From NCBI GenBank assembly GCA_016214895.1, contig JACRMR010000002.1, positions 436,001-500,000 of the forward strand: 64,000 nucleotides of DNA, given 5' to 3'. Under the pieces are notes generated by a model, which had not been told where the DNA came from, ran no database searches, and was given only the letters and a program-made list of their open reading frames with translations. The stretch comes from a candidate division KSB1 bacterium (GTDB lineage Bacteria > Electryoneota > RPQS01). The stretch's first letter is position 1. Every line of letters begins with the position of its first letter. The position numbers were made by a program, and so were the translations under genes. Of the stretch, positions 5,550-40,088 are shown piece by piece.

Positions 5550-5586
5550 AACCGGCCTCGCCCGCGCTCCGCGGGTCAGACCGGTT
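5550..5586 (+). promoter_or_regulatory. Two-tier hairpin in the giant gene's leader
   Basis: Outer stem AACCGG/CCGGTT (5550-5555/5581-5586), a symmetric 5+5-nt internal loop (cctcg/tcaga), and inner stem CCCGCG/CGCGGG (5561-5566/5570-5575) with a 3-nt loop. It is too regular for chance and sits 84 nt before the ATG. It may control stability or translation of the very long mRNA; function unknown. Confidence 0.45.
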
Positions 5587-5669
5587 TGCGCTCTGCACAG
5601 CAAGCGCCGCGCGATATCAATCGCCCCACTGAAAGAACAAGATTTACCCATATCCAGGAGAGTCACAAA

Positions 5670-8600
5670 ATGAGGTTCCAGACTCCTTTTGTGTGGCTTG
5701 CGATTCTCTTTGCAGCCTGCTTCGGGCTGCTCACGGGACCGGCTGCCTACGCGCAGTTCAACATCATCGACGGGCCAGACATCGTATGTATCGATAACGG
5801 CGGCGCGCCAGATACGATCGATGCCCCCGAAGATTCCATCCGCATTACCGTCACCATGACGGGCGAGGCGGCGTACGGCGATATCCTGCAATTGATCTTC
5901 AACCCCTCGCCGGGGCTCGGTCTGTTGCCGGTGTCGCCGCAGACCTTCGACTGCCCGACCGGACCCATCACCGGATACCCGATGACTATTACCTCGACGG
6001 TCAATGACCCGCCGGGGTTCATCACGTTTACCGGTGAAATCGTCATCAGGCCGGAAGGTATCTGCATCGCCGCCGACAGCTTGATCACCTTCGATATCGC
6101 GGCGCGCGGCACCGACACCTCGCCGAATCCCGACATCGTGCAGTGTGGTCAGTTCACCCGCACGCAGACGCCGCAGTGCAATATCTGTATTCCCTGCGGA
6201 CTCGTCTTCTTCACCGAGGTTTGCGGCATCTGGAATGACGGCATCATCGCCATCGGCGACTCCGTCTGGCTCGACTCCACCGCGGCGTCCGCGTTCGAGC
6301 TGAATGACAATGACACCGTCTTTGCCGACTTCTCCAATTTCACGTGCGACGGGGCCGACGCGATCACCTTTATCAAGGACACCATCGAAGTCGTGGATTG
6401 CGCCGCGCTCGAAAACGGTGTCGGCTGTGATACCGTCTATGTCATTCACGCGACTTGGGATCCTGGCGATAGTTTCGGGGACCCCAGCACCGTGTACGAC
6501 ACCGTAGGAGTCTGTCTGCGAGCCGCGGATAACCTCCGTCCGGAACTCGAAGACTGTCTGGACTCCATGGTCGTGATCAACGGCAACTATCTCGAAAACG
6601 ACACCCTGGCCGGTTGCTACGATACGATCCGCTTCTACTTCAGCCCGTACGTCGGCGGATCCTGCTACGATCTGTTCGGCGGCGTGGACCTCGCCTGCGG
6701 CGAACACGTCGATGATAACTTCGACGTTACCTACGTCGCGATCCAATTCGCCGACTGGGTGTCCGACCTGATCGCGGCCGATCCGGACTATCTCTATCAG
6801 CACAACAACGACCCCGTTTTTGTCCACTGCATCGAAACCCCCGACGGCGTCGATAGCACCTGGTGGATCGGCGACGCCTTCACAGATGGAACTGGAATCA
6901 TCTGGGCCGACCTGATCGTCAGCAGCCAATTCTGGGATTCACTGCAGCGCTGTCTGGATAACACCACCGCCGGAGCAATCCACTTCCAGTTCATCGACGA
7001 TGCCGGTAACTCCGACAACGTCGGCGTGGATCTGGATATCTTCTCCAATTACGCCGACAACTTCTGCGCGGACAACGTGCCGCCGGATACGCTCGGCAAC
7101 GAAATCTACTTTGACGACTCGTTCGCGGCCTGCGCCACCAAGCGCTTCTCCCCGTACGACAGTCTCGATGCCTCCTATTACACGAACCTGAGCCCGGACT
7201 CCGCTCGCTGGTATTTGCCGCAAATTGATGAGTCCTGGGGCACGGATCCGGACGAGTGGGACGATCTCTTTAATGACGTGTACCTCGTCGGCTTCGATAT
7301 TCGTCAAGAACCGGACGAAAACCCGGAAGGCCCGACCGGTGCCATCATCAGCTATCTGGACTGGATCGCCCCCGGCGCCCCGGCTCCGATGGACGACGAT
7401 ATCGACACCATCGCCTGGGTCTGGCGCGATCCGGCCGAAGGCTGCTTCATGTGGTGGGGCAAGAACGGCACCGATAGCCTCGATGCGCTTCTGAGCCTCG
7501 TCAGCCCCTGCCCGTACGGCGCGATCGTCGGAATCACCCACGCGCGTTATATGGATGCCGCCGGTTGCAATACCGTGCTCGGCAGCGACCATGACGGGAT
7601 GACCGACCTCAGCGAAGGCTACACGACCCTTAACCAGCTCCACTGTGTTATTGATACGTGCAAGCCGACCTTCGCGGGTCCGCTGGATGGTCTCCACTTC
7701 AATCCCGCCCTGCCCGCCGGCCCGAACTACGGTCCGGATGCCACCTGCGTGTGGAACGGGCCGAACGGCGTGGCCGATGACCCGATCATCGAGTTCCGAG
7801 CCCGCCGCTGGTTTACGCAGGGTCTGTCCGACACCTGCCAGCGGGAGTGGCTGTACTATCGAGTTCGCGTCGATACCGTATTCCTCCAATGCACGCCCGG
7901 CCAAGCCTGGCTGCCCGGCGACTCTACGCTTTGGTACACGGAAGACGATCCCGATCAAGGCTTGACCAGTGCGCCGCTCGAGCCGGTGCCGTTCCAGCAG
8001 AACAGCTTCATTGCTGATACGGTCAATTTCACGTGGGGACATGAGAATTCGGTCGGCGACCCGCTGCCCGACGGCCTCTACCTCGTGACGCTCGAATTGG
8101 TCGATAACGCCGGCAATGTCCAGCGCGACCCGAAGTACTTCTGGCTCAATGGCGTAGGACCGTGCATCGACTCGTTGATCGTGACCGGTGACGGACCCCC
8201 GCAACCGACCGCGCCGGATTGCAAGGTGGACTACTACGTCAATGACCTGCTCTGCGTCTGGATGCGTACGGATACCACCGCCGACTCCGTCCTGTTCGAC
8301 TTCAGCTGCATTTACCAGATGGAAGATAGTTTGCCCGACGGCGATTCGGTCTGGGTGACCAGTTGGATCGATGAGGGCGACGAGCGAGTTTGGGAAGCCT
8401 GCATTACCGTCGAAGACTGGATGATCGATACGGCCGGTGCCTACGGCAACAACCAGTACATCGTCGGCTACAACCTGGAATTCTTCAGTGGCGTCTGCGG
8501 CAACTTCTTCGGCTCGCACTTTATTGGTGCCAGCGTCTTTGACGACGGCCTCGTCAGTTACCCGGAGACCCTCACCGATCCGGACCTGGGTCCGTGCGTG

Positions 8601-11600
8601 GTGGCGGTGCTGGGTCTGACCCCGTGCCCGCGGATCGTGCCGATCTCGCAGTGGTTCTTCTACTACGATCCGGACAGCGTTCAGGCGCCGACCGGACCCG
8701 CGTCCTACGTTGACCCGGCGTTTATTCCGTTCGACACCATGCCGGACTGGAATGCCTTCTCGCCCGGTTCGATGGACTCGATGGGTCTTGGCGGTTCTTA
8801 TGACGCCATTCTGAATCCGGCCAACGACGAGATTCAGGACAGCCTGTTTGTCCGCCTCCTGATCGATCTCTCAACGATTGATCCGGACACGACCGACACG
8901 CTCGTACTGCAGTTCTACAATCCGACCAACGACCGTCTGCGCGAAGTCCGCAAGGCGCTCTTCGTGCCGACCTCCGAGTCGCTGACCCCGGATCCGAACA
9001 TCAACAATACGATCTACGACGGCTTCCTCGAGCTGGATGATGCGCTGCCCGCGTACTTCGCCGAATTCCGCTACTATTGGAACGGCACGTGGTATCAGGA
9101 CGCCGGAGTCGATAGCCTCATGCTCGTCCACCGGACGCTGCAGGACACGATTATCGTCCGCGCCTATACGATCGCCGGCGACAGCGTGGTTTCCGCCGAT
9201 CCGGATACGACCTACCTGATTTGCGATACGGTTTCCACCGAGCTGGACGTCGATAACGAGAATCCGTTCTTCATCGGCGACGGCTGGTCCGGCATTGCCG
9301 ACAATCACCGCGACTGGTACACCGGCACCACCCGCACTGTGCTCAACCTCGGGGTGGACGGCGATTGCGGTCGTCGCTATGAAGATGGCGAGCCCTTCAG
9401 CCTGATGGTGAAGCTGTCCGAACGCGTCCATTACGATGCGGCCGCCTATCCGAACAACGACGGTTCGACCTATCCTTGGGATGTGACCCGCAACTGGCAG
9501 ATCTCGGCCGTTAACACGGTCACGGGCGCGCTGATTTCGGGTGTCGATGTGTGGTTGAACAGCGTCGAAGACTCAATTGTCAATTCCGACTCCGTGTACT
9601 ACACGCTGAGCGGCTACTTCGATCTGCCTGATGTTTGGGATTCCCAGGAAGTTTGCCTCGTGATTCGCAGCGCGTGGGATCAGGCGGGTAACCCGGGACG
9701 CTACAATGACCCGGTCTTCACCGATGCCTACGAGAATGACGCGACCGAAGACACGTCCTATTGCGTGTTCCTGATTGATTGTAATCCGTGGACCGGCTGC
9801 CCCGACGTTTGGGGCCGTCCCGATGGCGTCGGCACACCCGACTCCGTCTTGGGCTGGATCGCCGCCGAGGAGGACAGCATTGTCGTCTGCGCTACCATCG
9901 TCGAGACCTGCGAGCTGGCCCTCTGCCCGCCCGGATCCCTGGGAGCCGCCCCGGTCGATTCGATCCATGTGATCGAAGGAAACTTCCAGACCATCACGGA
10001 TGACCCAAATCCGTGGGTGATCGCCGACGCGCACGGTGAGTGGTTCAAGTATGTGAACCCCGAGAATCCGCTCGATACGATCGGTTGGGCGCGCAACTGG
10101 TACTGGTACCTCCGCGCCGACTCCGCCGATCTGGCGACGATTCACTGTGACGGCGACTATCTGCCGTTCGGCCTGCACTTTACGACTTACGGCGGCAAGG
10201 ATGAAACCGCCGACTTCGAGGAGTGCGTCCAAGTTGACGTCAACGAACCGCAATGGTTCGCCTATTCCTTTGTTGCGGATACGGCCGGCGGCATGCTCGC
10301 GCTGATGTACGATGAGCACCTTGAGCTGGCCAACTACCCGTGGGGTGCGCCGCCGATTCCGACGCTGACCTGCGTCAATCCGGCTCAGCCATACACGTTT
10401 ATCGGTTTCCTGACTGACGACGGTATCGACTGCGAAGATGGCGACGGTGTGGGCCTCGACACGGCCGCCGTGTGGGCCGACTTCACGAACGTCTATATGG
10501 ATGCCGACAGTGACAGCGTACGCGCGGACAGCGTGGTCCTCGCCGATCCGGGACTCTGGCTCGCCTACTGGACGATCTGGAACACCAACGATGCCTACGA
10601 CTGTCTGGTCGATACGTTCGCTATCGTCCGCTATCATGCGCTGCACGACTCGCTCGGTCACCATGATCGCGAATTGTTCTGGCAGGACACCCTCTACTAC
10701 TGCAGTGACTGCCTGCCGCCGGACTTTAGCCCGGCCGTGTTCTGCGACTGTGACTCGATGTTTGAGATCCTCGATGACGTCGAGGAGTCCGGCGATTGCC
10801 CGGTCATCGGCTTGCAGTATGTGCATCCGGGAGGTGACATCAACGTCTTCGCCTGCGTGCATGACCCGGACACGGACTCGAGCTTCGGCTTGACCGATAA
10901 CACGTCCTCGTATGCCGTTGACCTGTCGCAGTTCGACCCCGGACTGGGCTGGGTTACGGCCGATCAGATCAGCCTGCTGATGACTCCCGAGTTCCTCGGC
11001 GGACCGGTCGATACGCAGGCCGTCGCGATCTGGGGTGGCGGCAATTGTGACGACCAATTCTCGTCGTACATGCTGACCAACACCTACGAAAACGGGGACA
11101 CGATCTACGCCCGGTTCTGGATCTGCGACGGTTGGGGCAATTGCACCGACACCACGATCTGGTACCCGGTGGCCATCGTTGATACCCTGCGCCCGATCAT
11201 TGACTTCGTGTATACCATCGGCGACGACTCGGTGCGCGCTTACGTCACGCCGGGTGACGACCATGTCAACATCTACGCTGATATCAACGGCTACGCCGCT
11301 GATCTGATCAGCAGCCCGCTCGGAATCTGGGCTGACTTCTCCGACTTCTGGTGTGACGACGACTCCGCGGAATACTATGATACGGTCTATGCGGATTATG
11401 TCGATCAGATCGACGAGAATCACTTCCGCGCCTATTGGGGTTGGTACCCCGGCGTCGGCTATGCCGATCCGAACGATACGACGACCTATCTCAGCAACCA
11501 CTACAGCGTTGATCCTGAGATCTGTGCGTGCAGCAATGTGGGCGCCGAAGGCACGTACGGGACCCTCTACTTCTATGTTGGCGACGCCGCCTGCAATGTC

Positions 11601-14600
11601 GGCTCCGCCTTCAGCATTTTCGAGTTCAGCGGCTGTGACAGCACGGTGCCCGATGTGGACAGCGTGTGGGTGATGGACGTCGGTCAGGACTGCGCGCCAA
11701 ATTGGTTCCGCGGCCAAATCGGCGACACCATTGAAGTCTGGGCCTGGCTCGACAGCCTCTTTAATGGCATCGAAGATACCCTTCGAATCGACTCCATGAT
11801 GGCGGATCTGCGGCAGTTCGGCGCCAGCTATGACTGGACCGCGATTACCACGCAGCCCGACCACTACGGCGGCGCGCCGGCATACGGCGTGGAGCCGGAC
11901 TGGACGCAGGATGTCCCGGCCTATTGGGATATCGAAGTCGATTGCGAAGGTCGTGACCGGCTCGTCGCCAAGTGGATTATCGTCAACGAAGTCGCGTATG
12001 ATTGCGGCGTCGTCGTCGAAATCCCGGTGAAGAGTCAGCGTCAGACCGGCCAGAACGGTTCGCACGGCTACTACCTCGACATGACCTATGGCAGCGCTGA
12101 ATCGTTCACCGCGACTTACGTTTGGTCGTGGGTCCGCGGCGACTATACCTGGGTGACCGGATTCCCGGGCAACCCGGACGAGGACAACGTCGATAGCGTC
12201 GTCGTGCTCCAGCGCGGTGTCTATAACATCGACTTCGACTCGTTGATGACTGTCTCCGTCGTGATGGATCCGGGCTGTCTGGTCCATCCGGAGTCGGAAG
12301 AAGTCTATGACTGGTCCGATGTCCATATCGACTTCACCGGCTTCCTGACCACGGATCCGTGGCAGTACCCGGATGAAATCTTCTACAACTTCGACGAGAA
12401 TGGCCACGACTCGTTGGTCTTCTATGTCCCGCTCTATGATGAATCGGGCGGCGGCGCGGAGTTCAACACCTCGATTGCCTCGAATCGCTACTGGTTCCCG
12501 CTGGTCCTGTCTGACGTCGTTGACTGCGGCGAAGGCACGTTCTGGGAGCAGTACTGCCTGTGGGAAGACCTGGACAGCGTGATCAGCTTCACGATCCAGA
12601 ACTACAACGAGCCGAATCCGGGCATGATCCTGCTCTGTGACTCGACCACGGCCGGCTGCGACACGAATATCACCGACGCCTACAACATGGCGTTGTGGAA
12701 TCAGGAGAACACGTACTGGGGCATCTCGTCGCCGGATACCGAGTACGAGAACCTGTACAAGATCTATTACGCACCGGGCAACTGGGCGTGGTTCTCGCAT
12801 AGCGACGACACCGATGACCCGACGCGCTTCTTCATCTTCGTGGAAGACAGCGTGCTGCAGTGCGACGGGATCGACAACGACAACGACGGGTTCCTCGACG
12901 AACTCGGCGAAGGCGTGGATTTCTACACGGCCGACCTCCGCATCAATACGATGCCGCAGGTGGCCCACATTGACTCGATGAACGTCGAAGGCGTGTGGAT
13001 CAATTACCTGTGGTACGCGGACAACTTCAGTGAGCGCGTCTATAATGTCGATCTGTTTATCAGCGACATCTATGGGCATCGCGATACCTTGGCCTGCGGT
13101 GACTATGCGTTAACTTTCCTCGAAGACGAGACCTGCCCGGTATTCAGCGAGCTGACCCTGTGGTTGGATGGCGAGCCGACGTTGATTCGCGTTGACCAGA
13201 CGAACGTCAGCACACTGGACTTGGAGGAGTTGACCGCCGACGATAGTCTGTTCGTGTTCGCGAACTTCGACTCCGTGCAGTTGTCGATCTATGATCCGGC
13301 ATTGTTCGACGGGATGGGCGCGCCGGGTTCCGGTGTGGACGTCGATCCGTCGGATGCCGTGGACAGCCTGACCTACAACGGTACCGGCGCCTCGACGATC
13401 GAGCTGCTCGATCCGAGCGACAACGTGATCGCCGGGTTCGGTCAGACGTTCTATACGGATAGCGACATCTTCAGCGACGCATTGCTGACCCTGAGTGATC
13501 CGACCGGCACCGTGATGGATGGTCTGCCCGACGGCGTGTACACCGTCCGCATCACGACACTCGACCGCGTCGGCAATTCCTGCAACTTCTCGTGGCAGTT
13601 CACGTTGGATCGGACCTGCCCGGAGATCGTGGATGTTTACACCGCGCGCCCGGGTACGCTGGATGCCACCGACGACCTGTTCGCGTCCTGGGATTATGTC
13701 GAAATCCGCTCCCACATCGTCGATCAGCTCGACGGCGTGGATAGTGTGATTTTCGATTACTGCTTCGATGCGAACCGCGACAATAACGTTGACGCGTATC
13801 CGTTCTGGCAGACGACCAACATCCTGGGTGACGAGGGCGGCAATTGGGATACCGAGTACCCGTTCGTCGTGTACTGGAATATCCGTAACTTGCCGTGGAA
13901 CTCCGAAGATACGCTGGGCCTGCCGCCGGTACGCCCGGACAGCTGCATGAACCGCTACTTCGTCCGCATCCGGGCCTGGGATATTTACGGTCACGAATGC
14001 GCCGATACGATTCCGGTGGATATCACCGACGATATCGCACCGCTGGCCGGGATGGCCAGTCTTGTCTACGGCGGCGCCGAGTTCGGCGAAGACCAGATTC
14101 AGGGTGCGTTGATTCCCTGCTTCAACCCGAACACGATGACCGACTCGACCGTGTTCCTGCTGGCTGATGACTACATCGATCTGGACCTCGGTTACGACCC
14201 GCTGCCGGGTGACAGCTTCACGATTGCCACCAACTGGTTTGACCTCTTTGAAGGTATGTTCCAGTTCAAGCAGTTCGAGGCGCCGAATATCTACTTCACC
14301 GGCAATACGGATCCGAACGCCGGCTGGGTGGTGATCCCGTCGGGAACGCATGGCGACGGTCAAGATACCATCACCTATCGCCATTTCTTCTTCGAAGACT
14401 TCGCAGCCAACTGGAATATCGTCGGCTTGCCGAGTGACCAGTATAACCTGCGCTTCTTGTCGTTCGACGTTTGTGGCAATGTCGATCCGCTGAACACTCC
14501 GGTGGTTACCGTCCGTATCGAGTGCGATACGACCGCGCCGCTGGCCGTGATCTGCTGGCCGACGCCGGACCTCTGCCTGACCAACTACCGCTGCGACAGC

Positions 14601-17600
14601 ACCGGTACGGATGCGTGGGTGCCCGTCAAGTCATCGAGCCCGATCTTCTCGGATGTGGACAGCGTCGCCTTCTTCTTCGTGGACTCGCTGTCGGTGCCGG
14701 GTCAGGGCATTCACACCTTTATCGGTGGCAATACCGAACCTGATTCCGTCGTCGATGGATTCGCCTTCTATTTCGGTACGCGTTGGAACACCAACAACCT
14801 GCTGTCCGGTACCTACTGGCTGTACGCTGTCGCCTACGACAACGGTGGCCTGTTCGATACCGATCCGATCTGGCAGCCGGTGTTCGTGGACAACGAGATG
14901 CCGCGCGTGACCGAGTGCTGGGTCGCCGATCCGGATGTGCCGGACGAGTTCGAGATCCTCTTCACCACTTGGGAAGACTCGACCTTCGTGCTGCGCGCCA
15001 ACGCCAGCGATAATGGCTGCGGTATCACCGGAGTCCAGTTCCAGTATCTTGATCGCTTCGGTAACTGGCGCAATCTGGTGGAAGATAACGACGTCGCGGA
15101 ACTGTATTATGTCGATATGGCCGTCTCACCGATCGATGGTTTCGATGAAGTCCCGGATGCCGCGGGTTACTATGAAGTCTGGGTCTCGTTCCACGACTTC
15201 GGCAACAGCCCGCTGGATTCGATCCGCTTCCGCGCTTACGCCATCGACGACGTGGACTACGGTAACGACAACGTGCAGGGCGACTACAATCGCGACTGCA
15301 ACCTCGACCGCGACCTCGAGTGCGGATCCGAGATCTGCTGCATGGCGCTTGAAATCCGTGACCGGATTCCGTTCGGCACGAATGTGACCTGCTGGAACCA
15401 TGGCGTGTTCGCGTGGGCCCTTCCGCAGTTCGCCGAGAGCTTCCTGCTGACGGATGGTCAGATCCTCTCGACCTGCGATAACAGCTCGCCGCTCGATACC
15501 CTGCTCATGACCGCCACGGTCCATGACAGTGTCGAAGATGGCTGGCTGATGCACTTCAAGTACCGCCGTTCCGGTCCGGAAGGATACGAGACGGCGTGGG
15601 ACTACATCCCGAACGACCAGTCGCTGAACCCGGCCATCCCGGCCCTCGGCCCGATCGCCCTCATTAATACGTGGGACAGCGTGTACGTGGTCTGGTCCGG
15701 CGTCCGGGGCTTCATCGAAGCCGCCGACGAAGCCGCCGGCCTCTGGTACTCGACTTGGGAGTTCACGGCTTACGTGACCGACCTCACGGGCAACGCCGAA
15801 GCCTCCGCCGCGCAGAATACCTGCGAGCTGAACTTCGCTTGCATGCCGAAGGCGCCGATCACGGCTGTCAGTTACGTTCAGAATAGCGTCGAAGATCCGG
15901 AAGTGCGCGTACGCGTGACCGAACCGGTCAGCTGGCAGGACGCGGAAGTCGATACCATCGAGATCATCTACAACCGCACAACCGATCCGAATGACAACGA
16001 TCCGGATGCTCTCGTGCTGTTCTACACCGATGCCGATGCGATCCGCAATTGCCGCGGCGATACCATTCAGGCCTTCAATATCCAGCTCTGGAATCAGGAT
16101 ACCGGAGAACTCGTCACCACCCAGCAAATCTGCTGGCCGGCCGGCGACTTCCGCACGGTTGACCAACTGGATAATGACCTCGGCTGGGATCAGTATCCGC
16201 CGGACGGTGACAACGGCAACCAGTATCAGATTGCTGTCTATTTCAATAACAGCTATCTGCCTGGCGTTTACAACTTCGCGATGATCGTCCGGACCGATCC
16301 GCTCTACTTCGCCGAGGACGGCCTGTTCGAGTCCGATAGCGACTTCGACGGTGATCTGTACGAAGAACTGTCCTGCATCGACCTCGTGGTTCGTGTGGCA
16401 AACGTCAACGAGCCGCAAATGGTGTTCTGTACGCCGGACTACGGCGACCTCTGCGTCCATGGTACCGTCCCGCTGTCCGCGCATCAGGCGCTGCTGCCGC
16501 CGGTCTTCACGGGCGTGGTTGACACCGTCTGGTTCCAGCGCTTTGACGGAACGACCTGGCAGCCGGTGGTTGACGCGATCTCGGGTCTGAGCTATGACGC
16601 GGATCCGACCTCGAGTGCTTTCCGCTTCCAGATCGACGAACACGAAGTGCAGGGTATGGCCGGTTGGTATTACGACATGGCCAACAGCAATAACGATCCG
16701 GTATATGACTGGTACGCGGAACGCGACCTGATCCCGGATGTGGCCCTGTGGCTGGCCGACACGGATGAATTCCACCCGATGACTCGTGACGATGCTACGG
16801 GTATTTGGACCGTGGACGTTACGCTGAATACGGAAGGCGATCCGAGTTGCTACGGATACGCGTTTGTGATCGACGCCAACGATAACAATATTTGGGAAGG
16901 CCCGAATGTTGACCGCTGGGTCGATGACCCACGCGACGCCTGCGCCGAGCCGCTGTTCGTTCAGTACGGCGAAGGTGGTGTCCCGGTCTCCCAAGTGTGC
17001 GCCTGCAACTACATGGTCAACTTCGATACCCGGACCGTGCTTGACGGCAGCTACAACTACGGAACGATCGTCCGCTGGCACGACGACGTGGCCTACCACG
17101 TGATCGAGGATCCGTCGGAAGGCGATTCGGTGCATGTCTTCTTCATCAACAATACGATCGTTGAAGATGGCTCGATTCCGGCGGTGCACGATATCGAGTT
17201 CGACCGCTTCTATCTGAACGGCGGTCTCTGCGATACCGCGGACGTCGCGCACTTCGTCACCGATATCCAGACCAACAACGGCGGTCTGGTCGTCGAAGAT
17301 ATCTGCATGGTCATCTATCAGGTCAGCTTGACCAGCAATCCGTTCGCCGACAGCTCGTGGGCCAATGTGGACACGGTCTGGTCGAATGACGATCAGGGCT
17401 GGATCGAAGCCTGGCCGGGTAGCTGGGCTGCTTACAACCCGATCGCCGACAACATCGATAACGACGGCGACGGTCTGGTTGACGAAACTTATGACGTTCA
17501 GGCCGGCGACGGCGTGGGCGAAGAGAACACGTTGTTCTGGAGCCGTTCGGTCGTCATTGATGAGTGTGGCAATACGTATGTCACCAATGCCGAGCAGTTG

Positions 17601-20600: not shown

Positions 20601-23600
20601 GCTCGCGATGTCGAAGCCGTCACGTGGGCGACCTTGGAGCAGGGCATGCCCGGACCGTGGACGATCATCGAACGCATCGCGGCCGAAAGCGATACCCAGT
20701 CCGTCTTCAGCCCGGTGGAAGGCACCTGGAATACCGAACTTCTGAATGGTACCTACTGGATCGGTGCGTTTGCCGAAGACTTCTACGGCAACATCGACGG
20801 TAACACCAGCCTCGGTGAGGCCGGCGCGCCGACGAATCCGTTGATCGTCAACGTCGATAACCAGCCCCCGACCGCCGTCATTACTCAGGTTACCCGCGAC
20901 GACGTCGTGGTGACCAACCTCGAGCGCGGTGCGGTACACACCTTCGCCTTGAACGCCGCCGACAACTTCGGGCTGCGTCAGGTCGCGTTGTACTACCGTC
21001 ACAGCGGCGGCGATCCGGATGCCTGGACCTTGATCGGCACGGATACCAACTTCCCGTACAGCTTCAACTGGCAGGTCCCGACGGACCTGGTGGACGGCTG
21101 GACCTATGACTTCGCCGCCGTAGCGACCGACCTCGTGTACCAGACCGACTTCATGGACGCGCAGGGTCAGTACATTATCGACGGCAGCTATCAGGTCGTG
21201 GATAACGAAGCCAACATCGCGATCTTCACGATCGGTGGTGTTGACGCCGAGACGAACCCGCACCTGAACGGAACGAACATCGCCATCGTCGCCCACAGCG
21301 AGCCGTACCTCGATAACGTGCGGTTCGTATGGGTGCGTGGTGTGGATACCACGGACATCCGGACCGTGCCGGGCCCGATCGGCACGACCACGTGGACCGT
21401 GCCCGACTGGGACGTCACGACCATCAGCGAAGGCCCGGCGCAGCTTGGCGCCATCGGCTCCGCGGATGTCGGCGGCGAACTGGTCACGCGCGGCTATGAC
21501 TTCCGCAACATCGTGATCGATCACAGCGTCCCGGCCGCGATTAACGGCAACCTGCCGGTAACCCGCGGCTTGGTCGGCGGTGCTTGCGAACTGGATGGCA
21601 GCAGCGAATGGTACGACGATGTCTGGGTCACCTTCAACCTCGGTCAGACCGACGCCAATGTCGATAGCGTCTGGTTCGAATGGAAGTGGGCGGCCGACAA
21701 CGACACCAACCGTTGGACCAACCTGGGTCTGGCGGTGCGTGACGGCGTCACCGGGCGCTGGGCCTTGGCCAGCGACTTCACGAGCTTCAGCTGCGGTACC
21801 ATCTCGGTCCGCGCGAGAATCAGTGATAACGCGGTCCCGCTGTCGAACGAAGCGTTCATCCTGTTCGCCGACTCGGTCCGTGTCGATAACTGTGCCCCGA
21901 TCGTGGACATCACCAACATCAATGGTGACGTGACGCCGGCCGGCACCGAAATCGCACAGGGTCAGGTGGCCACCATTTCGGCCACGGCGACGGATCCGTT
22001 CTCCAACGGCGGCGTCAGCCAGGTCGATAGCGTCTGCTTCTACTTCGTACCCGAGGACGACGGCGAGTATCAGTTCGAAACCTGGCAGCGCCTCGGCTGC
22101 GACAACAGCGCACCGTATCAAGTGAGCTGGAACACGGGTGGCGTGCCGTTCGGTGAGTACATCGTGTACGCCGTCGGCTACGATCACGCGGGTAATTGCA
22201 CCGTCGAAGCGGTCAACATCTTCATCATTGATCAGCTCTACCAGCGTGCCTGGATCGTCGGCTTCGATGTCGATAACGGTCTCGGCTGTCTGGATAAGAT
22301 CTGGGCCGTCACGGATGACTGCCCGCCGAATTGGACTTCGAGCGTGGTCTTCCAGTACTCGACCGACAACGGTCAGAGCTGGGTGGCCCTCGGCGAAGAC
22401 AACGACGGAACGGAGTACTGTGACGAATGGCTGGATTACCACATCTGGGAGATCAGCGCTGAGTTCGATGCCATCCCGGCGAACGCCGCCTTCCGCGCCG
22501 TCGCCTATGATGAATCGGGCACCGTCGATCCGGCCCCACCGCGGTTCCTCTTCTCTGACGTCAGCACGAGTCCGACGCCGGTCCTCTACACGGAGAACTG
22601 GGTCAACGTGCCGGTCCAGGAGGGCCAGGTCCCGTGGGTGTTCGCAACCTTGGAAGACTATACCGAATCCTGCATCACCGACGGTGGTCTGGTCTGCGTC
22701 GAGCAGACCGAGGGTGACCCGACGCACTATGCCGGCCCGCTGCCGAGCATCGTCCACCCGTGCCGCCTCAACAACCGCGATGGTCAGGTGACGGTCTTCC
22801 GTACGGTAACCACCGTCCGCAGTGGCAACACCTTCGTGCTCGTTACCAAGTACGAGATGAATGTCCACCGCGTCGATCAGGAAGGCGGTTCCAACGGCTG
22901 GCTGACGAGCGAAGACTTGCAGCTGCGGATGATCGTTCCGGACAACGGCATCACGGGACACGGAGCGGTCTGGTTCCAGCCGTCGCACGACAACGACAAC
23001 GTCAACCTGTTGCCGCCGTCACAGTACTACTACACGCTGCTGTCCGAGGTCGAGACCGTGTTCTCGAATGATCTCGGCAACGGTACCGACGAGTCGCGCT
23101 TCAGCATGCGCTTCAACGCCGCGTTGCTGCCGCAGGGCTACGTCACGAACCAGATCATCGCCGCCTACTGGGACGAGGAAGCACAAATCTGGGTCGAGCG
23201 CGGAATCGTCTATGAGAATCGCAACGTGCCGCAGGGTACCATCGACTTCCACTGGATTGTTGACTGGAACGTCTCCATCAGCAACGAGTGCCCGGACGGT
23301 GCGACCCTCGCCATCTTCTACTCCAACGTCGCCCCGCTCAGCGGCCAGGTCTTCTTCCGAGATGACGACAACTGCTGGCAGAATCCCGATAGCACCTACT
23401 ACACGCCGGCTCGCGGTGTGACGGTGGACTGCGACCCGGTCTTCTGGGCGGTCCTGCGGCAGGGCGAATACGTGCCGCTGCAGAGCACGATTGATGTCTG
23501 GCTGGATGGCATCCGCATCGTCAACGACGGCCAGCCCTCTGGTCCGTACGAAAACGTGTGGACGACCAGCTACGAATCCGTCAGCGGCATCTTCACCGTG

Positions 23601-26600
23601 CAGTTCGCCAGCGGGTCGGAGAGCATCCCGCCGTACTTCGGCTGCCTGGCTCCGGGACAGCACCACGTCCAGTTCTGGACGGATAACCTGTCCATTCCGG
23701 TCACGCCGTTCTGGGTTGACGTTACCGGTCCGGAAGCGTGGATGAACCCGACCTACATCAATCATCAGACGACTTTGGTCGCCCTGTTGACTGACGGTGA
23801 GTCGGGAATCGATACCGCGTTCACCTACCTTGACCTGATGAACTGCGAAGACTATGATTACACCTACGAAGTGACCGCTGAGGCCCTCACGTGGCAGCGG
23901 ATCGAAGGTGGATATCAGGTCTCCATCCAGTTGCAGTGGGATCAAATCGTCGCCCTATTCCCGGCTGACGAGTGGGGCTCCTGCCTAAATCCGCCGCGTC
24001 TTTGTGCGCACTGGCACATCTACAACGATGTGTGCGGGTACAACGACGAGACGCATGACTACGCCTTCACGATCGACGTCGAGCCGCCGCAGGTGCGCGC
24101 GGTATCGCCGATCGGTGACCCCATTGACAACGACGGCGACGGTCTGACCAACGAAGATTGGCGCGACTGCGTGAACAACGATAACGACTTCTGGTGGAAT
24201 AACGACTGGGATCGCTGGGAACCGCGTTACGACGAAGATCCGATTGACTTCGAGACGGACACGATGAACTGCGGTCAGCGTTCGCCCATTCAGGCCGCGA
24301 TCAATGATCTCGTCATGTGTTGCAGCGGCGCGTCGCAGGTCGATATCCGCAGCATCGCCCTCTTCATCGACGGCGTCCGCTTCGGCATCGCCGACACGGC
24401 TAATGCACAACTCAACTTCCGCGTCTATCAGCGGTACAACCAGGATGATGCGTTCATCACCTTCGGCGGCCCGACCTCGGGTGCCGCGGCTGACTTCGCC
24501 TACATCCCCGGCCCGCACAATATCGCGGTCGTCGTCGCCGACTCGGCCGGCAATGCCGCCGGTGACAACTTCGCCTGGGAATACTACGTCCGCTGCGCCG
24601 GCCCGGCGATTACCTTCGCCCAGCAAGAGTGTGGCAACTGGTGGAATCCCGAAGGTCAGAACGAATTCGCGTTCTGGGTTCAGGAGAATGGCGCCGGTGC
24701 CAACATCGCCCCGAATGGTATTCGTTACCGTGCCTACACGCTGCCGGATAGTGTGACCACCTGGCCCTGGACCACGATTGACCCGAACGGCCGCGACAGC
24801 GTCTATGTGTCGTACGATCCGTCCGGCTCCTTCCCGGATGACCAGACGGCCCTCGTGATCGAAGTCGAAGCCACGGACATCAACTTTGTCCAGGGCGACG
24901 ACAACGGCCGTACCTTCAGTTCGTGGACCTTCACGGTCGATAATTGCGCGCCGACGCTCACCGCGGTCACCCCGACTGACGGCCAGGGCTTCACGCGTGA
25001 TCAGGCGATCGTCGTCGAAGTCCTGTTTACGGATGACTGCAACGAAGATACGATCACGGTGCGCAATGGTGGCAACAACCCGGCGGTGATTAACACCGGC
25101 AAGCAGTTGAGCACCGGAACAGTCAAGATCGGCCGCATGGGCGCCGACGGCAGCATCACGAATCTCACCACCGGTCATCTGGCCGACATGATCTCCGGAC
25201 TGGATTCGCGCGGCGGTCACGGCACTCTCGACGACAACGGTTCGGGCATCATTCTCGAAACGTTTGATCTGAACATCTTTAACCCGCTGGGTGAGAACGT
25301 TGGTCCGGAAAGCACGGGTGACTACGCTGAGCTGGATGACGCTCATGCGAAGTACATCGTCGCGCCGGGCGGCCGTTGCGGTGAATACACCGTCAATGCC
25401 CGCATCACCGACTGTGTCGGTAATATCGGCACGATCACCTGGACGTTTGTAATCGAGTGTGGCGGTCCGTCGATCACCTTCAATGAGGTGGAAGGCGATT
25501 GCCGCTACCAGAACTACTGGAATCCGTCTTCCAACCTCCCGCTGTCGGTGACGCTCGGCGAGCTGGACGATGTGAACCTTTCCAGTGACGGGATCCGCAT
25601 TGACGTCGTCCGGCTCTACAACTGCGACGGCGGTCTGTGCACCGACACGATTCTGACCCATGCCAACTTCACGATGACGCCGGCCGCCGATCCGAACAAC
25701 ACCGATCAGGTGTTTACGGTCACCGGCAACTACAACCTCGACGATGATATCGCCGCGGTTGAACTGCGCGTCGTGGTGTCCGCGACCAACTCGCTGGGTG
25801 CGACGACCACCAGCGTGCAGTCGTGGATCGTGGATGGCACCGGCCCCGCGATCACCATCGTGACGCCGGAAGATGGTCAGGTCTTGCCGTCGGGACAGGC
25901 GATCACTATCAGTGCCGACTACACCGACATTGAACCGGCCCTCGCCGCCCTGTTACCGGGCGGAAACGTCGGAACGATCGCGCCCGCCATTGATGTGGTT
26001 GGCCCGACTCGCCTGACGAAGTCCGCGCCGAAACTCTTCGGCGGTGCCGCTGATACGAAGCACACCAACCAGGTCAACCTCGGTTCGTGGACCCCGGCCA
26101 TCGCCGGACACGGAACGCTGGACGGTATGAGTGGCGTTGACGTCCAGTGCGTCGAACTGCTCCTGCGTCCGGGTGACGGCAGCGCCGTGCGCCGCCTGCA
26201 TCAGGAGACCGAACGGGTGATCATCACGGACCACAACATCACGTGGGTCGGACCGTTGCCGGAAGGCTCGTACACGCTGATTCTCTCGGTGTGCGACCGG
26301 GTCTGCAACACCTCCTTCGTGACGTGGAGCTTCGCGGTGTCGCCGAACGAAGCGGGTGTCGAGTATCTGCCGCCGTTCTACCTGTCGTCGATGCCGCATG
26401 AATTCGCCATGCGGGTTGCCGGCAACAACGTGGACTACCCGTCCGCCCAACTCATGGTCGAAGCCATGACCTGCGGCGCCGGCGCCACGTGGACTGAACT
26501 GACCGACAACGGCGCGCTGCGTCGTGAAGGTAACATGTACTATCACGACGGTAACTACGATCTGGGTCGCTACTGCAGCTTCCGTCTCACCCTGCGTGTC

Positions 26601-27323
26601 AACTACACGTACGGTGTGCCGGTCCCGGGTGGCTCACAGATCTACACCGTCGATACCGCGGGTCCGCGCTTCACCGGCATCACTCCGGAGCCGTACACGC
26701 CGCAGAATCACAACGTTCTGCAGATCGGTTCAACCCCGACGTTCATCGTGAACTTCGAGGAAGTCGGAAACACTACACTTGACGGCGAGTCGTTCATCAT
26801 GAGCCTGCGCACGATGGGTGGTGTGACGGTCGCAACCGATACCGTGGCGAACATCGACGCGGCCGGAACTTCCGGCTGGGCCGATCTGACGGCCGGTCCG
26901 TTGGCTGCCGGTGAATATGACCTGTACGCTACGGTCGCTGACGTCGCCGGAAACGCGACGGCCATGACCTGGCATTACGTCGTCGGCGAACGCAACCAGA
27001 CGCTGACCGAAGGTCCTGTGTACAACTACCCGAACCCGTTCACTCCGGCCGACGGTCACACGACCTTCGTCTTCCCGGTGACCGGTGTCGAGGGTAATGC
27101 AGAGGTTCAGGTCAAGCTCTACGACTGGGCGGGTAACTTCGTCGCGACAATCTATGATGGACCGTGGTCCGCTAACTGCGCAACGTGCGCTGTGACGTGG
27201 GCCGGGACCAATGACGGTGGCGATCAGGTCGCTAACGGCGTGTACCTTGCGAACGTGAAGATCACCGCCTCGGGCAAGACCCGTCAGGAAGTGGTCAAGG
27301 TCGCGTTCAAGAACGAGAAGTAA
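5670..27323 (+). CDS. Giant secreted Ig-like repeat protein, 7217 aa, with C-terminal sorting-type domain
   Basis: One uninterrupted frame of 21.65 kb. The frame is open from 5454, but ATG 5670 is chosen because a Shine-Dalgarno (aggag, 5656-5660) precedes it and a signal peptide begins there (MRFQTPFVWLAILFAACFG, cleavage after AYA near residue 28). The mature protein is very acidic and rich in Trp and Cys. It is built of many beta-sandwich units, each closing with a phrase such as GTYWLYAVAYDNGG and opening with VDNxxP; the later ones resemble bacterial Ig domain Big_17. Calcium-loop motifs of the DxDNDGDGxxDE type occur near residues 2398, 3927 and 6150. Residues about 3660-3770 look like a starch-binding E-set insert. 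The last 100 residues are a FlgD-like/type A sorting domain (YNYPNPFTPADG, then NGVYLANVKI). Likely an outer-surface adhesin or sheath protein; its actual role is unknown. The PorV-OmpA gene follows. Confidence 0.9.
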   Translation: MRFQTPFVWLAILFAACFGLLTGPAAYAQFNIIDGPDIVCIDNGGAPDTIDAPEDSIRITVTMTGEAAYGDILQLIFNPSPGLGLLPVSPQTFDCPTGPITGYPMTITSTVNDPPGFITFTGEIVIRPEGICIAADSLITFDIAARGTDTSPNPDIVQCGQFTRTQTPQCNICIPCGLVFFTEVCGIWNDGIIAIGDSVWLDSTAASAFELNDNDTVFADFSNFTCDGADAITFIKDTIEVVDCAALENGVGCDTVYVIHATWDPGDSFGDPSTVYDTVGVCLRAADNLRPELEDCLDSMVVINGNYLENDTLAGCYDTIRFYFSPYVGGSCYDLFGGVDLACGEHVDDNFDVTYVAIQFADWVSDLIAADPDYLYQHNNDPVFVHCIETPDGVDSTWWIGDAFTDGTGIIWADLIVSSQFWDSLQRCLDNTTAGAIHFQFIDDAGNSDNVGVDLDIFSNYADNFCADNVPPDTLGNEIYFDDSFAACATKRFSPYDSLDASYYTNLSPDSARWYLPQIDESWGTDPDEWDDLFNDVYLVGFDIRQEPDENPEGPTGAIISYLDWIAPGAPAPMDDDIDTIAWVWRDPAEGCFMWWGKNGTDSLDALLSLVSPCPYGAIVGITHARYMDAAGCNTVLGSDHDGMTDLSEGYTTLNQLHCVIDTCKPTFAGPLDGLHFNPALPAGPNYGPDATCVWNGPNGVADDPIIEFRARRWFTQGLSDTCQREWLYYRVRVDTVFLQCTPGQAWLPGDSTLWYTEDDPDQGLTSAPLEPVPFQQNSFIADTVNFTWGHENSVGDPLPDGLYLVTLELVDNAGNVQRDPKYFWLNGVGPCIDSLIVTGDGPPQPTAPDCKVDYYVNDLLCVWMRTDTTADSVLFDFSCIYQMEDSLPDGDSVWVTSWIDEGDERVWEACITVEDWMIDTAGAYGNNQYIVGYNLEFFSGVCGNFFGSHFIGASVFDDGLVSYPETLTDPDLGPCVVAVLGLTPCPRIVPISQWFFYYDPDSVQAPTGPASYVDPAFIPFDTMPDWNAFSPGSMDSMGLGGSYDAILNPANDEIQDSLFVRLLIDLSTIDPDTTDTLVLQFYNPTNDRLREVRKALFVPTSESLTPDPNINNTIYDGFLELDDALPAYFAEFRYYWNGTWYQDAGVDSLMLVHRTLQDTIIVRAYTIAGDSVVSADPDTTYLICDTVSTELDVDNENPFFIGDGWSGIADNHRDWYTGTTRTVLNLGVDGDCGRRYEDGEPFSLMVKLSERVHYDAAAYPNNDGSTYPWDVTRNWQISAVNTVTGALISGVDVWLNSVEDSIVNSDSVYYTLSGYFDLPDVWDSQEVCLVIRSAWDQAGNPGRYNDPVFTDAYENDATEDTSYCVFLIDCNPWTGCPDVWGRPDGVGTPDSVLGWIAAEEDSIVVCATIVETCELALCPPGSLGAAPVDSIHVIEGNFQTITDDPNPWVIADAHGEWFKYVNPENPLDTIGWARNWYWYLRADSADLATIHCDGDYLPFGLHFTTYGGKDETADFEECVQVDVNEPQWFAYSFVADTAGGMLALMYDEHLELANYPWGAPPIPTLTCVNPAQPYTFIGFLTDDGIDCEDGDGVGLDTAAVWADFTNVYMDADSDSVRADSVVLADPGLWLAYWTIWNTNDAYDCLVDTFAIVRYHALHDSLGHHDRELFWQDTLYYCSDCLPPDFSPAVFCDCDSMFEILDDVEESGDCPVIGLQYVHPGGDINVFACVHDPDTDSSFGLTDNTSSYAVDLSQFDPGLGWVTADQISLLMTPEFLGGPVDTQAVAIWGGGNCDDQFSSYMLTNTYENGDTIYARFWICDGWGNCTDTTIWYPVAIVDTLRPIIDFVYTIGDDSVRAYVTPGDDHVNIYADINGYAADLISSPLGIWADFSDFWCDDDSAEYYDTVYADYVDQIDENHFRAYWGWYPGVGYADPNDTTTYLSNHYSVDPEICACSNVGAEGTYGTLYFYVGDAACNVGSAFSIFEFSGCDSTVPDVDSVWVMDVGQDCAPNWFRGQIGDTIEVWAWLDSLFNGIEDTLRIDSMMADLRQFGASYDWTAITTQPDHYGGAPAYGVEPDWTQDVPAYWDIEVDCEGRDRLVAKWIIVNEVAYDCGVVVEIPVKSQRQTGQNGSHGYYLDMTYGSAESFTATYVWSWVRGDYTWVTGFPGNPDEDNVDSVVVLQRGVYNIDFDSLMTVSVVMDPGCLVHPESEEVYDWSDVHIDFTGFLTTDPWQYPDEIFYNFDENGHDSLVFYVPLYDESGGGAEFNTSIASNRYWFPLVLSDVVDCGEGTFWEQYCLWEDLDSVISFTIQNYNEPNPGMILLCDSTTAGCDTNITDAYNMALWNQENTYWGISSPDTEYENLYKIYYAPGNWAWFSHSDDTDDPTRFFIFVEDSVLQCDGIDNDNDGFLDELGEGVDFYTADLRINTMPQVAHIDSMNVEGVWINYLWYADNFSERVYNVDLFISDIYGHRDTLACGDYALTFLEDETCPVFSELTLWLDGEPTLIRVDQTNVSTLDLEELTADDSLFVFANFDSVQLSIYDPALFDGMGAPGSGVDVDPSDAVDSLTYNGTGASTIELLDPSDNVIAGFGQTFYTDSDIFSDALLTLSDPTGTVMDGLPDGVYTVRITTLDRVGNSCNFSWQFTLDRTCPEIVDVYTARPGTLDATDDLFASWDYVEIRSHIVDQLDGVDSVIFDYCFDANRDNNVDAYPFWQTTNILGDEGGNWDTEYPFVVYWNIRNLPWNSEDTLGLPPVRPDSCMNRYFVRIRAWDIYGHECADTIPVDITDDIAPLAGMASLVYGGAEFGEDQIQGALIPCFNPNTMTDSTVFLLADDYIDLDLGYDPLPGDSFTIATNWFDLFEGMFQFKQFEAPNIYFTGNTDPNAGWVVIPSGTHGDGQDTITYRHFFFEDFAANWNIVGLPSDQYNLRFLSFDVCGNVDPLNTPVVTVRIECDTTAPLAVICWPTPDLCLTNYRCDSTGTDAWVPVKSSSPIFSDVDSVAFFFVDSLSVPGQGIHTFIGGNTEPDSVVDGFAFYFGTRWNTNNLLSGTYWLYAVAYDNGGLFDTDPIWQPVFVDNEMPRVTECWVADPDVPDEFEILFTTWEDSTFVLRANASDNGCGITGVQFQYLDRFGNWRNLVEDNDVAELYYVDMAVSPIDGFDEVPDAAGYYEVWVSFHDFGNSPLDSIRFRAYAIDDVDYGNDNVQGDYNRDCNLDRDLECGSEICCMALEIRDRIPFGTNVTCWNHGVFAWALPQFAESFLLTDGQILSTCDNSSPLDTLLMTATVHDSVEDGWLMHFKYRRSGPEGYETAWDYIPNDQSLNPAIPALGPIALINTWDSVYVVWSGVRGFIEAADEAAGLWYSTWEFTAYVTDLTGNAEASAAQNTCELNFACMPKAPITAVSYVQNSVEDPEVRVRVTEPVSWQDAEVDTIEIIYNRTTDPNDNDPDALVLFYTDADAIRNCRGDTIQAFNIQLWNQDTGELVTTQQICWPAGDFRTVDQLDNDLGWDQYPPDGDNGNQYQIAVYFNNSYLPGVYNFAMIVRTDPLYFAEDGLFESDSDFDGDLYEELSCIDLVVRVANVNEPQMVFCTPDYGDLCVHGTVPLSAHQALLPPVFTGVVDTVWFQRFDGTTWQPVVDAISGLSYDADPTSSAFRFQIDEHEVQGMAGWYYDMANSNNDPVYDWYAERDLIPDVALWLADTDEFHPMTRDDATGIWTVDVTLNTEGDPSCYGYAFVIDANDNNIWEGPNVDRWVDDPRDACAEPLFVQYGEGGVPVSQVCACNYMVNFDTRTVLDGSYNYGTIVRWHDDVAYHVIEDPSEGDSVHVFFINNTIVEDGSIPAVHDIEFDRFYLNGGLCDTADVAHFVTDIQTNNGGLVVEDICMVIYQVSLTSNPFADSSWANVDTVWSNDDQGWIEAWPGSWAAYNPIADNIDNDGDGLVDETYDVQAGDGVGEENTLFWSRSVVIDECGNTYVTNAEQLWVDVSEPQACITTINNVDNPDNTAIMIPADRLITITATDQSYADHGVLGWFQYRSLNPNDPEYMTWTSIQPAAGSDTLIRHDGLTYTGVWDLEAYFNHVEPNPDPESWFQLRVVAIDTVNNTDLCDNVVCQITVRFNDSEPASRIEVYQIWNAIDTAYSCTEPEICYIQPDAPYWINAIFAATNIDTGLASLTFQYQSLIPGGEPSEWRNLETIYDDLTWGSDGDTTVAVEFQPRPDEIGDHGFNIRVIVEDYNGNDTSVVKTLYVDGTAPIGESEATPTVLHNTYCGDRCRLDNENGIVTITFDPDDVSGEVNVNQVWLYVERDDELFSHNFGELTNDDVDTWTFDFGGDLCTAWLAANLDMGCYHMWVSFSDCAGNIDTVAVTTDCGFGVTDLVCIDCTPELPDHSTLDYMEYEGWDCTENETVELTDNVLDGTTEVGNQTVSICGALPEYQQYVWGVQLWGQLGDDEPVLIDSIYWTDSRDTHGNGYCFDWDVSDYENGHWHLWVLAIDAICDQQADTMADNFWVYVDNATPLGTITQLNGAAPNPVAPDTLELLSGENEPAWLWVEWTDGLNPDDSTQAHNRVQLYCKDAWHPNQADSWLLCGEIPSDCNPHYILLELTTRCNQTLDIVAVVSDRWGNGDLSVEEAMEAYTAGRYIDVYIQDTTPPAVQLWALNWDDTPDCDEEAFTVFDQQAHSANWTAAWGHDVWLHAFGAQGDYTIERVYFEYSLDGTTWFEIGMDDNADWPASWNCEECSEPLPWWCGAENNPDILWTAYWDVAGLTGDVRVRVRGEDRCGNIEEWENYTVSFDVEAPIAEVFVWESDVTVDDLPCDQWTEPQIPDTLERYTLLTLGACPEQENYDAYGVYWLIKRADDHPLNLFSWCYLGDDSTGPFSARYVDLWNGDCPNVEVGSWYDIAALTTDQSGNQLTLTQLLNHGNGTTYEEKWADLISRGYVKRFRVTDHTAPIAYSLTVTPDQTPDSSVVFVTGNVNLQALLDARDVEAVTWATLEQGMPGPWTIIERIAAESDTQSVFSPVEGTWNTELLNGTYWIGAFAEDFYGNIDGNTSLGEAGAPTNPLIVNVDNQPPTAVITQVTRDDVVVTNLERGAVHTFALNAADNFGLRQVALYYRHSGGDPDAWTLIGTDTNFPYSFNWQVPTDLVDGWTYDFAAVATDLVYQTDFMDAQGQYIIDGSYQVVDNEANIAIFTIGGVDAETNPHLNGTNIAIVAHSEPYLDNVRFVWVRGVDTTDIRTVPGPIGTTTWTVPDWDVTTISEGPAQLGAIGSADVGGELVTRGYDFRNIVIDHSVPAAINGNLPVTRGLVGGACELDGSSEWYDDVWVTFNLGQTDANVDSVWFEWKWAADNDTNRWTNLGLAVRDGVTGRWALASDFTSFSCGTISVRARISDNAVPLSNEAFILFADSVRVDNCAPIVDITNINGDVTPAGTEIAQGQVATISATATDPFSNGGVSQVDSVCFYFVPEDDGEYQFETWQRLGCDNSAPYQVSWNTGGVPFGEYIVYAVGYDHAGNCTVEAVNIFIIDQLYQRAWIVGFDVDNGLGCLDKIWAVTDDCPPNWTSSVVFQYSTDNGQSWVALGEDNDGTEYCDEWLDYHIWEISAEFDAIPANAAFRAVAYDESGTVDPAPPRFLFSDVSTSPTPVLYTENWVNVPVQEGQVPWVFATLEDYTESCITDGGLVCVEQTEGDPTHYAGPLPSIVHPCRLNNRDGQVTVFRTVTTVRSGNTFVLVTKYEMNVHRVDQEGGSNGWLTSEDLQLRMIVPDNGITGHGAVWFQPSHDNDNVNLLPPSQYYYTLLSEVETVFSNDLGNGTDESRFSMRFNAALLPQGYVTNQIIAAYWDEEAQIWVERGIVYENRNVPQGTIDFHWIVDWNVSISNECPDGATLAIFYSNVAPLSGQVFFRDDDNCWQNPDSTYYTPARGVTVDCDPVFWAVLRQGEYVPLQSTIDVWLDGIRIVNDGQPSGPYENVWTTSYESVSGIFTVQFASGSESIPPYFGCLAPGQHHVQFWTDNLSIPVTPFWVDVTGPEAWMNPTYINHQTTLVALLTDGESGIDTAFTYLDLMNCEDYDYTYEVTAEALTWQRIEGGYQVSIQLQWDQIVALFPADEWGSCLNPPRLCAHWHIYNDVCGYNDETHDYAFTIDVEPPQVRAVSPIGDPIDNDGDGLTNEDWRDCVNNDNDFWWNNDWDRWEPRYDEDPIDFETDTMNCGQRSPIQAAINDLVMCCSGASQVDIRSIALFIDGVRFGIADTANAQLNFRVYQRYNQDDAFITFGGPTSGAAADFAYIPGPHNIAVVVADSAGNAAGDNFAWEYYVRCAGPAITFAQQECGNWWNPEGQNEFAFWVQENGAGANIAPNGIRYRAYTLPDSVTTWPWTTIDPNGRDSVYVSYDPSGSFPDDQTALVIEVEATDINFVQGDDNGRTFSSWTFTVDNCAPTLTAVTPTDGQGFTRDQAIVVEVLFTDDCNEDTITVRNGGNNPAVINTGKQLSTGTVKIGRMGADGSITNLTTGHLADMISGLDSRGGHGTLDDNGSGIILETFDLNIFNPLGENVGPESTGDYAELDDAHAKYIVAPGGRCGEYTVNARITDCVGNIGTITWTFVIECGGPSITFNEVEGDCRYQNYWNPSSNLPLSVTLGELDDVNLSSDGIRIDVVRLYNCDGGLCTDTILTHANFTMTPAADPNNTDQVFTVTGNYNLDDDIAAVELRVVVSATNSLGATTTSVQSWIVDGTGPAITIVTPEDGQVLPSGQAITISADYTDIEPALAALLPGGNVGTIAPAIDVVGPTRLTKSAPKLFGGAADTKHTNQVNLGSWTPAIAGHGTLDGMSGVDVQCVELLLRPGDGSAVRRLHQETERVIITDHNITWVGPLPEGSYTLILSVCDRVCNTSFVTWSFAVSPNEAGVEYLPPFYLSSMPHEFAMRVAGNNVDYPSAQLMVEAMTCGAGATWTELTDNGALRREGNMYYHDGNYDLGRYCSFRLTLRVNYTYGVPVPGGSQIYTVDTAGPRFTGITPEPYTPQNHNVLQIGSTPTFIVNFEEVGNTTLDGESFIMSLRTMGGVTVATDTVANIDAAGTSGWADLTAGPLAAGEYDLYATVADVAGNATAMTWHYVVGERNQTLTEGPVYNYPNPFTPADGHTTFVFPVTGVEGNAEVQVKLYDWAGNFVATIYDGPWSANCATCAVTWAGTNDGGDQVANGVYLANVKITASGKTRQEVVKVAFKNEK

Positions 27324-27334: not shown

Positions 27335-27372
27335 ATGTCGGTGGGGCCGCGTCAAACCGGCCCCACCGGCAT
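27335..27372 (+). terminator. Long hairpin between the giant gene and the PorV-OmpA gene
   Basis: The arms 27335-27349 and 27358-27372 pair over 15 bp (core GGTGGGGCCG/CGGCCCCACC, one G-U), with an 8-nt loop. No T-run follows, so it may stabilise the upstream mRNA end or partly stop transcription, giving the 3' genes separate levels. Confidence 0.65.
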
Positions 27373-30449: not shown

Positions 30450-30470
30450 CGCCGGTCCCAAGCAATTACG

Positions 30471-40084: not shown

Positions 40085-40088
40085 TCGC

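Follow-up and report, generated by a model that had tools for sequence, protein, structure and literature searches.

Within the window, i.e. the whole stretch of 64,000 nucleotides of a candidate division KSB1 bacterium that was analysed, three consecutive genes on the forward strand (5670-30386) encode a giant secreted protein, a putative outer-membrane carrier and a secreted FG-GAP protein. The frame of the first gene (5670-27323) is open from 5454 to 27323, and translation from the ATG at 5670 leads to exactly 7,217 amino acids. This start was agreed by an alignment of four full-length giants, the window protein and its colinear homologues in the related genomes G006, G010 and G011, each of them with a hydrophobic signal peptide; in the window protein the Sec signal peptide comprises 28 residues (5670-5753; MRFQTPFVWLAILFAACFGLLTGPAAYA, read from the sequence) of an N-terminus that is conserved in the homologues. 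A third-position G+C content of 79% is as expected for a coding frame. The second gene (27433-28872; frame opening at 27388, probable ATG at 27433) encodes a fusion of a PorV-family barrel with an OmpA domain, and the third (29040-30386) a FG-GAP beta-propeller protein (PF01839, E 2e-48), secreted and devoid of a T9SS tail.

A promoter TTGACA-N17-TATATT (5278-5306, forward strand) precedes the ATG of the giant by about 390 nt, and identical hexamers with identical spacing were found at -380 to -392 in G006, G010 and G011; the site in G007 reads TTGAAA-17-TATATT at -91. The leader of about 350 nt between promoter and start (5306-5669) includes a terminator-like hairpin followed by a T-run (5436-5466, forward strand; TTTGTGTTTTTTTCC), and as some of the homologues retain this largely conserved T-run, the operon may be subject to attenuation. 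A second, G+C-rich hairpin, here without T-run, lies between the giant and the carrier gene (27339-27368, forward strand) and has counterparts of unlike sequence in the same position in G006, G010 and G011; its role may be to adjust the proportion of the two products or to protect mRNA ends. No promoter-like site was found between the end of the giant and the end of the FG-GAP gene, which is followed by a terminator of a 12-pair hairpin and a T-rich tail (30414-30451, forward strand), with similar hairpins 3' of the FG-GAP gene in G004, G006, G010 and G011. From the conserved promoter, the lack of an internal one and this terminator, the three genes probably form one operon. A search of the window against Rfam gave no match.

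The gene order around the locus is conserved in the order to which the bacterium belongs, with genes for a HflX-type GTPase, an HTH-cupin regulator, AdoMet decarboxylase, arginine decarboxylase, spermidine synthase and an arginase-family enzyme upstream, and the giant, the PorV-OmpA fusion, the FG-GAP protein and a surface-polysaccharide cluster following. The latter (38666-57082 in the window; UDP-sugar dehydrogenase, WbaP-type transferase, the heptose kinase HddA and mannose-1-phosphate guanylyltransferase) holds its place downstream of the three genes across the order.

The giant protein and its C-terminal tail

The giant contains 10.8% Asp, 2.5% Cys (180 residues), 3.4% Trp and 0.5% Lys and carries a net charge of -871. 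Of the residue types counted in the giants, conservation is highest for Cys, Trp and Asp, and their enrichment together with this conservation fits disulfide-bonded, calcium-binding, beta-rich domains. When further T9SS cargos encoded in the genome were compared, the high Asp and Cys contents proved peculiar to the giant, whereas low lysine is common, with 0.3-1.2% in most of the cargos checked. Lysine depletion was therefore rejected as a special trait of the giant, and of the unusual composition described in the initial annotation it is Asp and Cys that stand out. Further lysine-poor exported proteins are encoded at L001, L003, L004, L006, L007, L008 and at 33092-35389 of the window; several non-exported proteins checked have 4-7% lysine compared to about 0.3-1.2% in T9SS-exported ones.

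The calcium-loop motif DxDxDG occurs four times in the giant but 0.74 times in shuffled sequences (P 0.008), and is thus about five times commoner. Three of these loops are found at the same place in all four full-length giants: DNDNDG at residues 2402-2407 (12873-12890, within CDGIDNDNDGFLDE), DNDGDG at residues 3930-3935 (17457-17474), which is invariant in the four, and DNDGDG at residues 6153-6158 (24126-24143), all on the forward strand. A Pfam profile scan matched Big_7 and Big_13, and an AlphaFold2 model of the last 1,118 residues is all-beta with about ten sandwiches, a mean pLDDT of 70 and a low pTM, the latter as expected for a flexible chain. If the density of ten domains per 1,118 residues holds throughout, the protein may comprise roughly 65-70 Ig-type domains, and its predicted length would perhaps be 200-270 nm if fully extended; filaments of SprB measure about 200 nm (PMC12635249). 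The N-terminal 940 residues, the presumed tip, gave no Pfam or PDB profile match. As no internal repeat was detected when the protein was compared to itself by BLASTP (E<=1e-3), the Ig-like units are not recent duplicates. Thus, the intact frame of 7217 residues, the signal peptide, the Ig-like units, the minimum of three DNDGDG-type loops and the absence of recent tandem duplication, all claimed in the initial annotation, were borne out. An embedded E-set/CBM48-like insert at about residues 3640-3760, also suggested there as an E-set-like unit, was dropped, the stretch being modelled with pLDDT <50 and without support from Pfam or PDB profiles.

Fold searches with the models led mostly to generic Ig, FN3 and macroglobulin chains, and with the middle stretch, which was modelled poorly (pLDDT <50), to pieces of SiiE (2yn5, TM 0.44 on target). 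Matches of predicted structures such as these indicate architecture and fold type, not kinship; PDB profile searches with three stretches of the giant revealed no sequence relation to SiiE.

The tail of the giant (residues 7066-7209; 26865-27296, forward strand) consists of an Ig domain and a C-terminal T9SS domain of the PorU/PorZ type. The best NCBIfam match of the whole protein was the PorU model NF033707 (positions 949-1090, E 7e-17), spanning the last Ig domain together with the signal domain, and in the genome only PorU itself matches this model better than the giant's tail, which aligns over 143 positions compared to about 85 for other tails. NF033707 also matched all ten homologous tails, eight of which match TIGR04183 as well. 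Among solved structures PorU (6za2, E 2.3e-9) and also PorZ (5m11) were matched, so the PNPF sorting-type domain proposed at first sight could be assigned to T9SS by profile and structure. Pfam gave weak matches to FlgD_ig and CHU_C (CHU_C with 18 bits versus a cut-off of 27), and the type B domain TIGR04131 gave no match in the giant at E<=1. The tail shares with PorU the hairpin WxGxxxxGxxVANGVY; in the form WxGxxxxGxx(V/L)xNGVY it is common to the tails of PorU, of proteins of about 1,800 residues described below and of the giant, and was absent from those ordinary type A tails of the genome that were inspected. Two features described for T9SS domains (PMC11285876), the Gly of L-beta3-beta4 and the Lys of the last strand, were sought and can be assigned by eye to G1056 and K1111 of alignment A4, both invariant in ten tails. 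The domains of PorU and PorZ are reported to have an additional hairpin and to escape removal during secretion (PMC11285876); in Porphyromonas this type of tail is not cleaved. From its likeness to them we place the giant's tail in the uncleaved class, so that it would be retained after export. The hairpin itself is reported not to be what prevents cleavage (PMC11285876).

The proposed PorV-OmpA carrier and putative cargo-carrier pairs

The product of the second gene combines a PorV/PorQ-family barrel (27523-28326, forward strand; NF033709, 125.3 bits versus a cut-off of 90) with an OmpA peptidoglycan-binding domain (28558-28845, forward strand; PF00691, 80.2 bits). The HTD and LS..R residues of the latter are invariant in nine sequences, including D415 and R430 of alignment A3, which we take to be the ligand residues from what is known of OmpA structures. 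The likeness to PorV is drawn from sequence profiles. We propose that the protein acts as dedicated carrier and anchor. The adjacent carrier, absent from the initial annotation, was the decisive feature for our reading of the locus. No published description of a PorV-OmpA fusion was found in a limited literature search, and such an anchor is apparently undescribed so far.

As the genome encodes SprA/Sov (TIGR04189, 762 bits), PorU and PorV, export of the giant by a T9SS is likely; about 150 ordinary cargos are encoded as well. GldL and GldM were not found and GldK remained below the cut-off, with the controls for GldL and GldM also giving no match. Another very long T9SS cargo with 4,065 codons (G000:C3:276287-276511, L004) ends in an ordinary type A tail, and further T9SS cargo frames of the genome have 2,083-2,448 codons.

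A gene with PorU-type tail followed by a PorV-family gene was found at three loci, namely the canonical porU-porV pair, a protein of about 1,800 residues with a PorV paralogue, and the giant with the PorV-OmpA fusion; the gene order of the giant and its carrier is thus the same as in porU-porV. The second pair, conserved in the order (L055:1028-7554 in G006, L056:747-7189 in G011, L057 in G007), consists of a PorU-tailed protein of about 1,800-1,880 residues, a separate PorV-family gene and a small lipoprotein-like gene. Trees of the tails and of the barrels contain the same three clades, paired one-to-one, which suits long-standing cargo-carrier pairs with the limited power that three locus types allow, but the members of any one clade, whether tails or carriers, are also simply orthologues of each other. 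In characterised systems, type A cargo is collected from SprA by PorV, which for ordinary cargo of this type acts as release shuttle. PorV also keeps PorU at the cell surface (PMC7463736), and the SprB tail is bound and held by SprF, the product of the gene immediately following that of SprB (PMC9143113, PMC12618676). For the Bacteroidota examined to date, a single shared and probably recycled PorV is described for type A cargo, dedicated carriers being restricted to type B cargo (PMC12618676).

Conservation across the order

We compared 13 genomes of the order and 26 others of the phylum. Intact colinear giants are present in three independent assemblies from two other genera, one of them in another family (frames of 7,525, 7,805 and 7,841 codons in G006, G010 and G011, respectively), with 46-52% identity to the window giant over about 7,000 residues in full-length alignments across families. 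These homologues rule out an assembly artefact, and with the same genes downstream they agree with the conserved system that the initial annotation had envisaged. With the last 207 residues as query, 11 of the 13 members of the order gave strong matches. In G001, G002, G004, G005 and G012 the gene reaches beyond the end of its contig, and for G003 the contig searched holds only the last part. In G008 and G009, where the giant was not seen, the contigs stop inside the PorV-OmpA gene and the giant is unassembled. A profile of the giant's middle region gave no match in the 26 other genomes of the phylum. A scan of 84,980 species genomes with two short peptide patterns, and to this extent not exhaustive, led to three loci, all matching members of this order. 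A piece of the giant is encoded on record DYHQ01000167.1 (L031), titled Candidatus Puniceispirillum, and this title is probably a misassignment since the record carries that piece.

All 13 genomes of the order have the fusion gene (for G002 just its beginning, at the edge of a contig), and it occurs in none of the 26 others, where the PorV-type and OmpA-type matches listed are separate frames. It adjoins the giant wherever a contig spans both, and its product, 60-73% identical to the homologues in the order, is better conserved than the giant. The FG-GAP gene occurs in none of the 26 other genomes and in all but two of the 13, i.e. in 11; the two are G007, from which it is missing, and G002 (56% complete), where the search did not detect it. 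In G007 (L023/L027) the giant lies on a long contig and represents a natural internal deletion, the signal peptide being joined to the equivalent of residues 4787-7217, so that about 2,300 residues remain at the end and the outer two thirds are lost. The FG-GAP gene is missing from this genome alongside the outer part of the giant, hinting that the propeller works with that part of the fibre. This shows that a gene of such size, of a kind commonly taken for strain-specific or an artefact, can be ancient and order-wide, and we regard the three genes as a conserved, order-wide module dedicated to a surface fibre.

Proposed arrangement of the fibre and known systems

We propose, with a probability of roughly two in three, that the giant is a T9SS-exported fibre held by a dedicated PorV-OmpA carrier and thereby pinned to the cell wall. 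The protein would be exported via Sec by means of its signal peptide and then cross the outer membrane through the SprA/Sov translocon, where its PorU/PorZ-type tail would be picked up by the probably co-transcribed PorV-family barrel and stay bound without cleavage. Since outer-membrane barrels have their termini on the periplasmic side, the OmpA domain at the carrier's C-terminus is expected in the periplasm, in a position from which it would grip the peptidoglycan. The result would be a chain of Ig-type domains stiffened by disulfides and calcium, its N-terminus pointing outwards and moored through the outer membrane. Against this, the carrier could be a release shuttle like PorV for ordinary type A cargo. 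The initial annotation had suggested a sheath, an adhesin or a predatory surface protein. A secreted, surface-bound giant is supported, adhesion or tethering is the likeliest role from the architecture, with odds of about even, and no pointer to predation was found.

The giant might instead belong to a calcium-binding sheath, S-layer or extracellular-matrix coat, present in many copies and fixed to the wall by PorV-OmpA. The very acidic composition with calcium loops and many conserved Cys, the near-consensus conserved promoter and the adjoining polysaccharide cluster, conserved in relatives, would all suit such a coat, but units of 7,200 residues are costly, no S-layer family was among the Pfam and NCBIfam matches of the giant, and non-repetitive units that are strongly conserved from end to end are more suggestive of a precise chain than of a lattice, so that we consider a coat unlikely. 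A slightly smaller chance is given to an ordinary type A cargo, whose tail would be cut by PorU, the giant being released or fixed to polysaccharide and PorV-OmpA serving only as shuttle or general wall anchor. The additional TIGR04183 matches of eight of the ten homologous tails, the presence of PorU, PorV and about 150 ordinary cargos in the genome and the polysaccharide cluster downstream are in line with it; the length and hairpin of the tail, however, are as in the uncleaved tails of PorU and PorZ (PMC11285876), and only genomes of the order have the fusion, which adjoins the giant wherever a contig spans both.

A mobile gliding adhesin, with the carrier coupled to the T9SS motor track as for SprB, which has a mass of 669 kDa (PMC12618676, PMC9143113), would fit the similar size, the T9SS export and the cognate carrier gene directly downstream. 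This appears less probable again, since the tail is PorU-like and not of type B TIGR04131, the carrier is of the PorV family and not PorP/SprF, and of the motor GldL and GldM were not found and GldK stayed below the cut-off, although the controls for this were weak; moreover, the peptidoglycan-binding end of the carrier argues for a fixed post and against gliding. Very improbable is a predatory grappling fibre like GhpA of Aureispira, a T9SS-secreted protein of 5,898 residues that spans a filament (PMC13319060, PMC11205867). The giant is likewise T9SS-secreted, and the fold search with the C-terminal model lists pieces of GhpA among the beta-sandwich chains, but with whole-chain TM-scores of 0.13-0.26, and neither a sequence relation to the GhpA chains in the PDB (profile searches with three stretches of the giant) nor DUF11 repeats (Pfam scan) were detected.

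Returning to the moored fibre, we think it somewhat better than an even bet that cargos with PorU-type tails are handled by dedicated PorV paralogues and that here a carrier with its own peptidoglycan-binding domain both collects and moors the fibre. This would constitute an undescribed class of T9SS display and, as a wider rule, PorV-branch cognate pairs parallel to those of type B and PorP. If true, it would account for the retention of a fibre of >700 kDa under load, and carrier specificity could be tested in a simple two-gene system. An uncultured lineage seems to have made dedicated PorV carriers and to have fused the carrier of its largest protein to a wall anchor, which offers a way into the surface biology of a phylum that is represented here by metagenome bins only.

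Among known systems, SiiE of Salmonella is a giant Ig-type chain with calcium sites as well, but a type I secretion substrate, whereas the giant described here belongs to T9SS. GhpA of Aureispira, the nearest predatory giant, is also a giant T9SS-secreted beta-sandwich chain, with a heptamer and a hook as features of its own; the resemblance goes no further than the chain of Ig-type domains, and no sequence relation was detected. In Porphyromonas gingivalis, PorE, PorP and PG1035 likewise bring surface cargo, barrel and OmpA-type part into one contact chain (PMC9143113, PMC7192894), but barrel and OmpA part are separate proteins there and the cargo is of type B. PorU and PorV share with the module the tail type of Ig domain and domain with hairpin, the order of cargo gene then barrel gene and the holding of PorU by PorV (PMC7463736), whereas here about 7,000 residues of Ig-type units replace the catalytic sortase part and the barrel has gained an OmpA domain. 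Similar in layout are SprB and SprF of Flavobacterium johnsoniae, a giant T9SS surface protein with an outer-membrane carrier encoded directly downstream and proposed to hold the tail of its cargo (PMC9143113, PMC12618676), from which the present pair differs by its PorU/PorZ-like tail and a PorV-family carrier with its own peptidoglycan-binding domain. With a tail that gave no TIGR04131 match and a carrier outside the PorP/SprF family, the giant should not be called SprB; judged by its genes, the module is an analogue of SprB-SprF made from PorU and PorV parts.
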